A model generated the notes under the pieces. That model ran no database searches. It saw only the letters and a program-made list of their open reading frames with translations, and was not told where the DNA came from. Source: Myroides profundi (GTDB taxonomy: Bacteria > Bacteroidota > Bacteroidia > Flavobacteriales > Flavobacteriaceae). Taken from it: a DNA stretch of 64,000 nt. Of the stretch, positions 56,439 through 59,842 are shown piece by piece (the first letter of the stretch is position 1; each line of letters begins with the position of its first letter). The translations under genes and the position numbers were made by a program. The stretch is taken from NCBI RefSeq assembly GCF_000833025.1, contig NZ_CP010817.1, positions 1-64,000 of the forward strand, written 5' to 3'.

Positions 56439-57293
56439 ATGAAGAGACTTTTATTAGGAGTGTGCGCTTTCTTAGCAGTGTATTCAGCTCAGGCTCAGGA
56501 AACTGAGGCTAATACAGCAACAGAAGCTGTTAGCCCATGGACAAGAACAGGTAATTTTACTTTTTTACTTAACCAATCTAGCTTCTCAAATTGGCAAGCA
56601 GGTGGAGATAATAACGTATCTGGAAGTTTTAAAGTGAATTACGATTTCAATTACAAACAAGGTGATTGGAACTGGGATAATAAAATAATTGCTAGTTATG
56701 GTCTTACTAAGTTAAAAGGGCAAGATCAGAAAAAAACTGATGATAGATTAGAGTTTAACTCATTACTAGGTAAAAAAGCTCAGGGTAACTGGTTCTATTC
56801 TGCATTCTTGAATTTCAAGACTCAGATGGATAGAGGAGTAGATAAAGATGGAGTATATAACTCTCACTTTATGTCTCCAGCTTACTTACAAATAGGACCT
56901 GGTATGTTGTGGAAAAAGAGTGATAATTTAAAAGTGAATATTGCGCCAGCTACTTCACGTTTTATCTTAGTTCACGACCACTTTACAGAGTTTGGTGATG
57001 CTTTTGGTGTTGAAAAAGGTAAATCAATGAAATACCAACTGGGGATGTCTATTAATGGATACTACAAATTCGACGTTATGGAGAATGTATCTGTTGAGAA
57101 TATCTTAAACTTATATTCTAACTATCTGAAAAAACCAGAGAATGTGGTAATTGATTATCAGTTGAATGTAGTGATGAAGATTAATAAATATCTTTCTACA
57201 AACTTTACATTCCAAACAATCTATGATGACTTAGCTTATAAAGGCTTCCAAGTTAGAGAGATGGTTGGAGTAGGAGTAAACTACAACTTCTAA
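56439..57293 (+). CDS. DUF3078 outer-membrane beta-barrel-like protein
   Basis: A 284-residue protein with a signal peptide (to about residue 19, AQAQ). The following region of alternating strands opens TRTGNFTFLLNQSSFSNWQAGGDNNVSGSFKVNYDFNYKQGDWNWDNKI, typical of DUF3078. It ends in Phe (VGVGVNYNF), as outer-membrane barrels usually do. It is probably an outer-membrane protein of unknown role, with its own promoter and a bidirectional terminator. Confidence 0.85.
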   Translation: MKRLLLGVCAFLAVYSAQAQETEANTATEAVSPWTRTGNFTFLLNQSSFSNWQAGGDNNVSGSFKVNYDFNYKQGDWNWDNKIIASYGLTKLKGQDQKKTDDRLEFNSLLGKKAQGNWFYSAFLNFKTQMDRGVDKDGVYNSHFMSPAYLQIGPGMLWKKSDNLKVNIAPATSRFILVHDHFTEFGDAFGVEKGKSMKYQLGMSINGYYKFDVMENVSVENILNLYSNYLKKPENVVIDYQLNVVMKINKYLSTNFTFQTIYDDLAYKGFQVREMVGVGVNYNF

Positions 57294-57310
57294 TAGAATA
57301 CATACAAAGG

Positions 57311-57336
57311 AAAAAGGTTGGCATTTGCCAACCTTT
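57311..57336. terminator. bidirectional terminator
   Basis: AAAAGGTTGGCA TT TGCCAACCTTTT between the convergent DUF3078 and asnA genes. Confidence 0.9.
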
Positions 57337-57342
57337 TCTTTT

Positions 57343-58347
57343 TTATAATAGGTTAATACCTTTTTGTTCCGCTTCTCTTCTTACTTCCTCCGGCCAAATA
57401 CTCGCTTGTACTTCTCCAATATGCTTTTTGCGCAATAAGAACATACAAATTCTTGATTGACCTAGACCACCACCTATACAAAGAGGTAACTTATCCTCAA
57501 GTAATAAGCTGTGATATAACAATGATTTTTTATCTAAAGCTCCTGCTAACTCTAATTGATGTTCTAAAGCTTCTTTGTCTACTCTAATTCCCATAGAAGA
57601 TAACTCTAATGATTTACCATGAACAGGGTTCCAAACTAGTAAATCACCATTTAATCCTTTGTAACCATCTTCTGTAGGAGTAGTCCAATCGTCATAGTCA
57701 GCTGATCTGCTATCATGAGGAATGTCATTAGATAGCTTTCCTCCAATTCCTATAATAAAAACAGCCCCATATTCTTTCGCTATTGCATGTTCTCTTTCTT
57801 TTGGAGTAAGAGTAGGGTATAGTTGTAAAAGTTGCTCAGAATGAATAAAAGACAGTTTTTTAGGCAGGATAGGTTCTATTCCTAGTTCTTCATATATTCT
57901 GTGTTCTGTGTCTAGCAATGTTTGATAGATTGAACGGACTATATTTTTCAAATAACTTAGAGTTCTATCTGCTTTTTCAATGCGTAATTCCCAGTCCCAT
58001 TGATCGACATAGATAGAGTGTATAGGACTGCTATCCTCGTCTGGACGAAGGGCTTTCATATCTGTTAGAATTCCTTCATGAGCATCTAACTCTAGCTCTT
58101 GTAGTCTAATTCTTTTCCATTTTGCTAATGAATGTACTACTACACCGCGATTGTTATTTAGAAATTTTACAGGGAATGACACTGGACGCTCTATACCGTT
58201 TAAATCATCATTAATACCTGTGCCTTCATTTACGATCATAGGTGATGATATAGGGTATAGGTTAAGTGCATTACATAGTCCTTTAGAGAATTGTTCTTTG
58301 ACTAATGCAATGGATTTTTCTGTTTGTAAAATTTCTTTTTTGCTCAT
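57343..58347 (-). CDS. asnA: aspartate-ammonia ligase (asparagine synthetase A)
   Basis: A 334-residue class II synthetase-like enzyme making asparagine from aspartate, ammonia and ATP. The family pattern is clear: SSPMIVNEGTGINDDLNG near residues 34-51, VVHSLAKWKR about 69-78, IYVDQWDWE about 107-115 and the C-terminal GGGLGQSRICMFLLRKKHIGEVQ. Length matches E. coli AsnA (330). Upstream lie a terminator hairpin and, before that, an Asn-rich leader peptide, so expression is probably set by transcription attenuation responding to charged tRNA-Asn. Confidence 0.96.
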   Translation of the reverse strand: MSKKEILQTEKSIALVKEQFSKGLCNALNLYPISSPMIVNEGTGINDDLNGIERPVSFPVKFLNNNRGVVVHSLAKWKRIRLQELELDAHEGILTDMKALRPDEDSSPIHSIYVDQWDWELRIEKADRTLSYLKNIVRSIYQTLLDTEHRIYEELGIEPILPKKLSFIHSEQLLQLYPTLTPKEREHAIAKEYGAVFIIGIGGKLSNDIPHDSRSADYDDWTTPTEDGYKGLNGDLLVWNPVHGKSLELSSMGIRVDKEALEHQLELAGALDKKSLLYHSLLLEDKLPLCIGGGLGQSRICMFLLRKKHIGEVQASIWPEEVRREAEQKGINLL

Positions 58348-58380
58348 GATTTTTTGTTTTTGAATTTGTTTTAAAATAAA

Positions 58381-58405
58381 AAAGGCTCCTCAGAGAGGAG
58401 CCTTT
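58381..58405 (-). terminator. attenuator terminator of asnA
   Basis: On the minus strand AAAGGCTCCTC, loop TCT, GAGGAGCCTTT followed by TTTATTTT. It lies 33 bases before the asnA start and 25 bases after the leader peptide stop, and it cannot serve hflX alone because the leader gene lies between. The segment TCCTCT (58394-58399) of its first arm can instead pair with AGAGGA (58457-58462) inside the leader coding region, which would be the antiterminator. Confidence 0.8.
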
Positions 58406-58430
58406 AAACGGATAATGAAATAATATATAA

Positions 58431-58511
58431 TTAACTTAAATCAATGCCAATAGGATTCCTCTTCGAGTCGTAGAAACGATTCAAATTATTATTAGAGAAA
58501 TTATTGTTCAT
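58431..58511 (-). CDS. asparagine-rich leader peptide of asnA
   Basis: A 26-codon frame from ATG (58511-58509) to TAA (58433-58431). The peptide starts MNNNFSNNNLNRFYDS and ends GIDLS; 8 of 26 residues are Asn, with two runs of three Asn codons and another Asn at position 11. It is followed at once by an intrinsic terminator and then by asnA. This is the architecture of amino-acid attenuators (as for trp, his and leu). Ribosome stalling at the Asn codons would leave AGAGGA (58457-58462) free to pair with the terminator's first arm and let transcription reach asnA. Confidence 0.85.
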   Translation of the reverse strand: MNNNFSNNNLNRFYDSKRNPIGIDLS

Positions 58512-58609
58512 TGATAAATACATATAATCAGCTTTTTAGCAATACTGTAAAAATAGAAAAAATATTATTATCTAATCTTCTTTTACTAATTAATTTATAA
58601 ACAAATATT

Positions 58610-59842
58610 TTATTCTTCTTCTGAAGATTCAATTAAATGGTCATAATCTGGGAATAAAAAGTTGTTGTAAGGGAAACGTGTAATGTGAATTTCACGTACT
58701 GCTTCGTAAACTTTCTTTCTAAACTCTTCAAAGTTTTCTTTGTTTGTTGCTGAGATAAAAATAGCATTGTTTTCACCTACTTTATTCATCCAAGTCTTCT
58801 TCCATTCTTCTATTGAATAGTGTTTAGAAGTACGTTCTGTCATTAGATCATCCTCTTCTATTCTCTCAGGTTGATAAGCATCTATTTTGTTAAATATCAT
58901 AATAGTAGGCTTGTCATTACTCTTGATATCCTTAAGAATCTCATTTACAGATTCGATATGATCTACGAAGTCATGATGAGAAATATCTACTACGTGTAAT
59001 AATAGATCTGCTTCTCTTACTTCATCTAAGGTACTTTTAAATGACTCCACTAACTGAGTAGGTAGTTTACGAATAAACCCTACAGTATCTGACAATAAGA
59101 ATGGCAAGTTACCAATTACGATTTTACGTACAGTAGTATCTAGCGTTGCAAACAACTTATTCTCTACGAATACTTCACTTTTACCTACAGCATTCATCAG
59201 TGTAGACTTCCCTACGTTAGTATACCCTACTAAGGCTACTCGTACCATTGCTCCACGGTTTCCTCTTTGAGAAGCCATTTGCTTATCGATTACCTTTAGT
59301 TTATCTCTTAAAAGGGTAATACGGTCACGTACGATTCGTCTATCTGTTTCTATCTCTGTCTCCCCAGGACCTCTCATCCCAATACCTCCACGTTGTCTTT
59401 CTAAGTGAGTCCACATACCAGATAGTCTAGGTAATAAATACTGGAATTGTGCTAGCTCTACTTGAGTTCTTGCATACGAAGTTTGTGCTCTTTGAGCAAA
59501 GATGTCTAGGATTAGGTTGGTACGATCTAGTACTTTACAGTCTAGTTCCCTCGAAATATTCTTTTGTTGAGCAGGCGATAGTTCATCATCGAATATCACG
59601 GTATGAATATCGTTCTCTACAATATAATTATGAATTTCTTGCATCTTCCCAGTACCAACAAAGGTCTTAGGATTTGGCTTGTCCATTTTCTGTGTAAAAC
59701 GCTTATATACTTGTCCTCCTGCAGTAAATGTCAAAAACTCTAATTCGTCTAAATACTCATTTAGCTTTGATTCATCTTGATCTTGTGTAATGATTCCAAC
59801 GATTACAGAACGTTCAAAATTTATTTCTTCTCTATCAATCAT
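58610..59842 (-). CDS. hflX: ribosome-associated GTPase HflX
   Basis: A 410-residue GTPase that splits stalled or stress-inactivated ribosomes. The N-terminal HflX domain has the GTGKMQEI and DDELSPAQQKNISREL segments. A coiled coil follows, then the glycine-rich RQRGGIGMRGPGETEIETDRR linker (about 150-170) and the G domain with GYTNVGKST (near 207), DTVGFIRKLP and NKID. The start at 59842 (MIDREEINFER) is chosen because the -7 element TAATTTTG (59868-59861) would overlap an earlier ATG at 59863. It is separated from asnA by the leader and attenuator. Confidence 0.95.
   Translation of the reverse strand: MIDREEINFERSVIVGIITQDQDESKLNEYLDELEFLTFTAGGQVYKRFTQKMDKPNPKTFVGTGKMQEIHNYIVENDIHTVIFDDELSPAQQKNISRELDCKVLDRTNLILDIFAQRAQTSYARTQVELAQFQYLLPRLSGMWTHLERQRGGIGMRGPGETEIETDRRIVRDRITLLRDKLKVIDKQMASQRGNRGAMVRVALVGYTNVGKSTLMNAVGKSEVFVENKLFATLDTTVRKIVIGNLPFLLSDTVGFIRKLPTQLVESFKSTLDEVREADLLLHVVDISHHDFVDHIESVNEILKDIKSNDKPTIMIFNKIDAYQPERIEEDDLMTERTSKHYSIEEWKKTWMNKVGENNAIFISATNKENFEEFRKKVYEAVREIHITRFPYNNFLFPDYDHLIESSEEE

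Follow-up and report, generated by a model that had tools for sequence, protein, structure and literature searches.

The DNA upstream of asnA on the minus strand of the window (the whole stretch of 64,000 nucleotides that was analysed) most probably encodes a ribosome-mediated, trp-type transcription attenuator that would sense charged tRNA-Asn, a reading to which we give a probability of about 0.91 from the sequence. This reading had been put forward in an earlier note on the same DNA, and it gains support from conservation in relatives, from an antiterminator that covaries with its terminator, and from cognate leaders with WWW or HHHHH elsewhere in its genome.

Architecture of the asnA leader

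In the direction of transcription, the features of the region are as follows.

58548..58555, minus strand: promoter-like -7 box TATTTTTA of the TAnnTTT type (TAnnTTT in 16 of 16 aligned rows, by eye)
58431..58523, minus strand: leader ORF MYLSMNNNFSNNNLNRFYDSKRNPIGIDLS, 30 codons, the coordinates taking in the stop (ORF listing and alignment of relatives)
58485..58508, minus strand: putative stall site, with Asn codons in two runs of three (AACAATAAT TTCTCT AATAATAAT)
58494..58506, minus strand: segment 1, at the first Asn codons; in the predicted fold of the window sequence alone, a partner of segment 2 in ribosome-free RNA
58448..58462, minus strand: segment 2, putative antiterminator strand, with the core AGAGGA
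58395..58405, minus strand: segment 3, the 5' arm of the terminator, holding the antiterminator partner TCCTCT
58381..58391, minus strand: segment 4, the 3' arm of the terminator (terminator scan)
58373..58383, minus strand: T-rich tract of the terminator (sequence and terminator scan)
57343..58347, minus strand: asnA, aspartate--ammonia ligase, the gene presumably controlled (TIGR00669, E 5e-124; PF03590, E 2e-92)

The gene scores 413.9 bits as asnA with TIGR00669 against a cut-off of 292.8, and it is the only PF03590 match in the whole genome. Upstream of it, the leader ORF holds 8 Asn in 30 codons, as expected for the attenuator of a biosynthetic gene. The earlier note had described this ORF as a 26-codon frame, MNNNFSNNNLNRFYDSKRNPIGIDLS, from an inner ATG at 58511 to the stop at 58433-58431; its 8 Asn codons and two runs of three are confirmed, but the ATG at 58523 is the better start, because ATGTAT is aligned there in the seven closest rows and the inner ATG is not kept, its position reading TTG or TTA in L111, L112, L083, L113 and L084. 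The 30-codon leader begins MYLSMNNN. The intrinsic terminator (58405-58381) consists of 11 pairs closed by a 3-nt loop and is followed by the T-rich tract; its stem lies 25 nt after the leader stop and 33 nt before the asnA start codon, the leader stop itself being 83 nt from asnA, so that the 11-bp stem, T tract, spacing and gene order noted previously were all found again. Over the 156 nt that span leader and terminator, the fold has a z-score of -5.1, and 0 of 200 shuffles were as good.

The TAnnTTT box is presumably the -7 element of Bacteroidota. It occurs 70 to 5 nt before the first leader in 31 of 38 loci, compared with 1411 of 3800 mononucleotide shuffles. If this box (TAnnTTT at 58555-58549) is the promoter, the leader transcript would be nearer 165 nt than the roughly 130 nt suggested before. 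A start downstream of the hairpin is less likely, since it would have to fall in the 33 nt between stem and start codon.

Asn codons in close relatives and cognate leaders in the same genome

In a draw of 378 genomes of the genus, asnA is present in 16, the window's own included, and a leader with a terminator precedes it in all 16 (15 besides the window's). Conservation of the Asn codons and of the terminator was the check proposed in the earlier note, and both recur, also in distant Bacteroidota. A covariance model made from Vaginella and 15 of the 16 genus genomes matches within the genus largely by construction. The terminator is present in all 16 aligned sequences, and the densest 12 codons of the leader hold 7-8 Asn in 11 of the 16 and 3-5 in the other five (L114-L117 and L085). 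Also, an Asn-Leu-Asn motif (Asn-Ser-Asn in L118 and L119) is kept in 16 of 16 leaders. Towards its C terminus the peptide drifts, and L111, L112 and L113 have different stops.

The five loci with few Asn leader codons (L114, L115, L116, L117 and L085) come from close relatives and retain the terminator. They form one subclade, in which, as these alignments read, much of the Asn run is gone.

Other leaders of the Myroides profundi genome follow the same pattern. A leader VNTQFLNTNWWWLAKSYQGSVGRTMYLSCD, containing WWW, precedes a PF00425 gene (L163; 238012-238767, minus strand) that we read as trpE, with the terminator GAAGCCTGCTAGG 35 nt past the leader stop, and an HHHHH leader precedes hisG (L166; PF01634, 2879601-2880065, minus strand), with a terminator 34 nt past the stop. 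Moreover, the next-best match of the asnA covariance model in this genome is a WWW leader, MNLILTNTWWWTKLTSNVVSSPCYVYMN, with a terminator, before a gene that we take from its sequence to be trpB. It lies at C1:3154099-3154242 on the minus strand (L183), with the trpB-like gene standing apart from trpE, and it is conserved in three relatives (L184, L185 and L186); the four lower-ranked loci of the covariance model that were examined are trpB leaders. For the two other PF00425 genes (L164 and L165), the same scan gave no cognate leader. In the leaders of this genome, as far as their genes can be named from sequence, the codon run tracks the end product, which is the classic rule of attenuation.

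This rule bears on the possibility that the Asn run is an arrest motif, in which a sequence-specific nascent chain or a drug, and not scarcity of Asn-tRNA, would halt the ribosome. Polyproline slows ribosomes, and Pro-Pro-Gly or Pro-Pro-Pro-Gly is frequent in the second-type leaders of relatives with tandem units (L089, L092, L087, L141 and L149). Slowing by polyproline also appears in the accessible part of PMC11611912. However, the leader of the window has no motif of the Pro-Pro-Gly type; Asn is what the leaders have in common, their other residues and their spacing being variable, and each of those collected stands before an asparagine-synthesis gene. Together with the WWW and HHHHH leaders of the same genome, which obey the cognate rule, this makes arrest an improbable explanation, and sensing of Asn-tRNA charging is preferred.

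Recurrence of the device before asnA

For a broader view, the regions upstream of asnA were collected from 1904 genome look-ups (nested draws, repeats included) and from 80 contigs, these being the best 80 of at least 589 confirmed relatives. A duplicate of the window (L001), a further duplicate (L110), fragments or truncated loci (L103, L108, L120 and L145) and a locus with only 45 nt upstream (L009) were excluded before counting, and L113 joined after the first count. The detector asked for an ORF with at least 4 Asn per 12 codons ending -5 to 80 nt from a terminator of at least 8 bp. An Asn-rich short ORF with a terminator was found in 38 of 147 upstream regions, compared with 1 of 1470 dinucleotide shuffles, and natural control windows from the same loci passed in 3 of 1950 cases. 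When any amino acid was allowed to score at a density of at least 5 in 12 residues, Asn did so in 34 of 148 regions and each other amino acid in 0-1. L085, with 3 Asn, falls below the cut of the detector and entered later tests as a homologue; two loci that do pass, L135 and L121 (the latter with 4 Asn in 18 codons), look weak and were omitted from the covariation, folding and tree tests. The carriers include Hymenobacter, Solirubrum, Vaginella and Mesonia; no Prevotella or Prevotellaceae locus among the best 80 of at least 589 relatives passed the detector.

Within the 4.06 Mb genome, two nearby Asn triplets occur at 7 places, the same number as with a reversed-pattern control, and the asnA leader alone among them is a short ORF before a terminator. 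As candidate leaders the other six were rejected: L157, L159 and L161 lie in long open N-frames, L160 lies inside a long open frame in another register, and L158 and L162 have shorter N-frames with no terminator within reach of the detector.

Some further observations concern particular loci. In Hymenobacter-type loci, a hairpin-like CTCCC(C)GC...GGGAG sequence without a T tract stands between the terminator and asnA (in L002 and L122 at -138 and in L004 at -77 from the asnA match), and is perhaps the relic of a second unit. In genome G468 (L119 and L120), asnA appears as two adjacent matches, seemingly in different frames, so the gene may be broken there. Finally, a distant asnA from another class of the same phylum (L134; GC 0.62) has an Asn-rich leader, VNANLNSNLNLNANNNAMTAGG, and a terminator; this device is possibly of independent origin.

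The putative antiterminator covaries with the terminator

The earlier note had proposed an alternative pairing between AGAGGA and TCCTCT. Both sites are exact (58462-58457 and 58399-58394), but the 6-bp match alone is not significant, since 37 of 200 shuffles equal the ungapped 2:3 match of the window. Support for the 2:3 pairing in the window comes instead from covariation in relatives. This was evaluated with 39 modules, that is, 47 modules in 40 loci minus L135 and seven near copies or weak cases (L010, L109, L112, L115, L116, L117 and L121). The duplex of segment 2 with its own terminator arm has a mean of -14.2 kcal/mol, compared with -9.4 kcal/mol with the arms of other loci, and 0 of 20000 permutations, which ignore relatedness, reach the observed sum; the same result is obtained separately within the 30 first-type and the 9 second-type modules. 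Moreover, 16 modules selected by hand for their common register show pairing in 127 of 128 cells and changes on both sides in 5 of 8 pairs, as exemplified by GGAAGGCT/AGCCTTCC, GGAAGATT/AGTCTTCC, GAAAGATT/AATCTTTC and GAGAGGCT/AGCCTCTC. An antiterminator pairing (2:3) that excludes the terminator is thus present by covariation among the aligned relatives. By the strength of the own-arm duplex the window ranks 5 of 39, L114 ranks 16 and L085 ranks 31; this duplex is weak in L085 and L114, the two members of the low-Asn subclade that were tested.

These data also weigh on a reading in which the hairpin does no more than terminate hflX and the Asn-rich frame arose by chance in AT-rich DNA between genes. 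Indeed, hflX ends at 58610, upstream of the leader and on the same strand, and a scan of 57200-58800 gives no other minus-strand terminator-like site between hflX and the leader. However, in L007, L010, L141 and L149 the leader and terminator are present even though the nearest listed upstream frame runs in the opposite direction, and the terminator in these loci is thus not that of the upstream gene. The shuffle and natural-window controls, the covariation of leader with terminator and the failure of the six other double Asn-triplet places to be leaders go against chance as well, and this reading, highly improbable in our judgement, is largely refuted already. As for a translation-independent riboswitch or T-box with an incidental ORF, T-boxes control asnA in some Firmicutes, but this has almost no probability here, where no Rfam model matches at its gathering score (a tRNA being the sole match in the whole window), the top sub-threshold match of the region by bits and the sole leader family up to an E of 1 is Phe_leader, at 25.9 bits against 55, and relatives keep the reading frame over the Asn codons while the peptide end drifts.

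Proposed mechanism and folding model

What can be read from the DNA is an ORF carrying runs of Asn codons, a terminator after it, a 2:3 complementarity that covaries among relatives, and recurrence of the device before asnA. From these we infer where the promoter lies, that the leader is translated and ribosomes stall at its Asn codons, that the 1:2 step takes place and that asnA is regulated in response. RNA synthesis would begin upstream of the leader ORF. With plentiful Asn-tRNA, the ribosome would pass the Asn codons and reach the stop, and segment 2, lying under or behind the ribosome or paired again with segment 1, would leave the 3:4 terminator free to form, halting RNA polymerase before asnA. 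On the other hand, when Asn-tRNA is scarce, the ribosome would stall on the Asn runs and mask segment 1, segment 2 would then pair with the first arm of the terminator (2:3), and asnA would be transcribed for want of a terminator. In a leader that is not translated, the 1:2 hairpin would favour termination.

This scheme was modelled by folding 43 modules with an assumed footprint size for the ribosome, after removal of L135 and L121 and of two modules in which the ORF overlaps the stem. With a ribosome on the mid-Asn codon, the first arm of the terminator is predicted to be paired upstream with a mean probability of 0.80 and above 0.5 in 43 of 43 modules. With the ribosome at the stop, the predicted mean is 0.37, or 0.20 when only RNA downstream of the ribosome is counted, and with no ribosome it is 0.46, above 0.5 in 21 of the 43 modules. 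The values predicted for the window are 0.72 when stalled, 0.67 at the stop (0.16 with downstream RNA only) and 0.20 for ribosome-free RNA. Most relatives have segment 2 nearer to the stop codon than does the window clade, and in the model of the window this segment lies just upstream of the assumed footprint of a ribosome at the stop; in the predicted fold without a ribosome, segment 2 is taken up by segment 1 (58506-58494), which lies within the first Asn run. The values 0.67, 0.16 and 0.20 suggest that the off state in the window clade may depend either on steric separation or on formation of the 1:2 hairpin. Also, the best 2:3 duplex of the window (-11.3 kcal/mol) compares with -17.0 kcal/mol for the terminator, so antitermination would need to win kinetically.

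History, tandem units and codon choice

A tree of 148 AsnA proteins, built with FastTree, places 34 of the 38 attenuated rows together in a clade of 43 with an SH-like support of 99; the remaining four (L081, L134, L143 and L149) sit on long branches elsewhere, where their place is unsure. The attenuation label needs 8 changes on this tree, compared with 34 in shuffles. The counted device is absent from 110 of the 148 rows and from 9 of the 43 in the attenuated clade; among these nine, L009 has only 45 nt upstream, too few for a judgement, and L124 encodes a protein identical to that of L005. Seven of the nine were inspected by eye, and no device was seen except the weak one of L121.

Several relatives have two leader-terminator units before asnA, found by the detector in L014, L055, L087, L088, L141, L143 and L149 and read by eye for the second unit in L081, L089 and L092. 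The first leader type has the form NNN-x-x-NNN-L-N...R/K before a GCCTTCC-type stem, and the second NNNNNN...PPG before a GCCTGC-type stem, its Pro-Pro-Gly codons often lying near the antiterminator strand.

Leader Asn codons in the 38 carrier loci are 63 AAC and 246 AAU, two weak loci included. In eight GC-rich loci the leaders have 15 AAC and 43 AAU, compared with 27 and 1 in asnA (Fisher p about 1e-10), and in fourteen hand-picked AT-rich loci 21 and 103, compared with 88 and 84 (Fisher p about 1e-9), these values not being true probabilities because the loci are related. The preference for AAU may reflect sensitivity to charging or simply the need for weak structure.

Taken as a history, Asn attenuation could be a widespread and old property of one Bacteroidota AsnA lineage, whose fuller form is two serial units and of which the single unit of the window is a reduction; we consider the chances of this about even. 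It would include two distinct leader types, an RNA polymerase that passes two checks of Asn starvation, and a favouring of AAU over AAC.

Relation to known attenuators

Ribosome-mediated attenuation is classically that of the trp, his, leu and ilv operons of enterobacteria. The asnA device resembles these in its leader ORF with cognate codons, intrinsic terminator and alternative antiterminator, but differs in that it would read Asn, belongs to Bacteroidota and has a promoter box of the TAnnTTT type; no homology with them is claimed. With the trpE, trpB and hisG leaders of the same genome, whose terminators stand 21-35 nt past the leader stop, it shares architecture and cognate codons, although it concerns another amino acid and another gene. 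A comparative study of attenuation by Lopatovskaya and others (2010), cited in PMC4833913, may hold asnA.

In Flavobacterium psychrophilum, strong clues for leader-peptide attenuation before amino-acid biosynthesis operons are described in the available part of PMC9723704, which mentions neither asnA nor Asn, and in Bacteroides thetaiotaomicron the portion of PMC7366714 at hand reports sORFs reminiscent of leader peptides. The tandem relatives resemble the Salmonella mgtCBR leader in having two short ORFs; there, according to the available text of PMC3641672, these are tandem attenuators in which both ORFs are thought to steer stem-loops that control transcription. However, mgtCBR serves magnesium transport and virulence, as given in that text, whereas in the tandem relatives both leaders are Asn-rich and stand before asnA, and the window itself has one unit instead of two ORFs. 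In the accessible part of PMC9045200, asnA of E. coli is expressed at a lower level in a ribosome mutant and the leader peptide is tnaC; asnA was not found in the available text of PMC12123629. The titles and beginnings of abstracts surveyed, mostly from outside the subscription journals, do not name an asnA leader. Within that literature we found no earlier description of asparagine or asnA under leader-peptide attenuation, whereas the trp and his versions are long known. The tandem arrangement of some relatives would count as a variant.

If the attenuator reading is true, asparagine and asnA would join the amino acids and genes watched by stalled ribosomes, and a mechanism studied mostly in enterobacteria would extend to a Bacteroidota lineage, beside the trp and his leaders of the same genome. 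Moreover, nature would offer two tests: the low-Asn subclade, of the way in which such sensors decay, and the tandem relatives, of the reason for placing two sensors of one amino acid in series.
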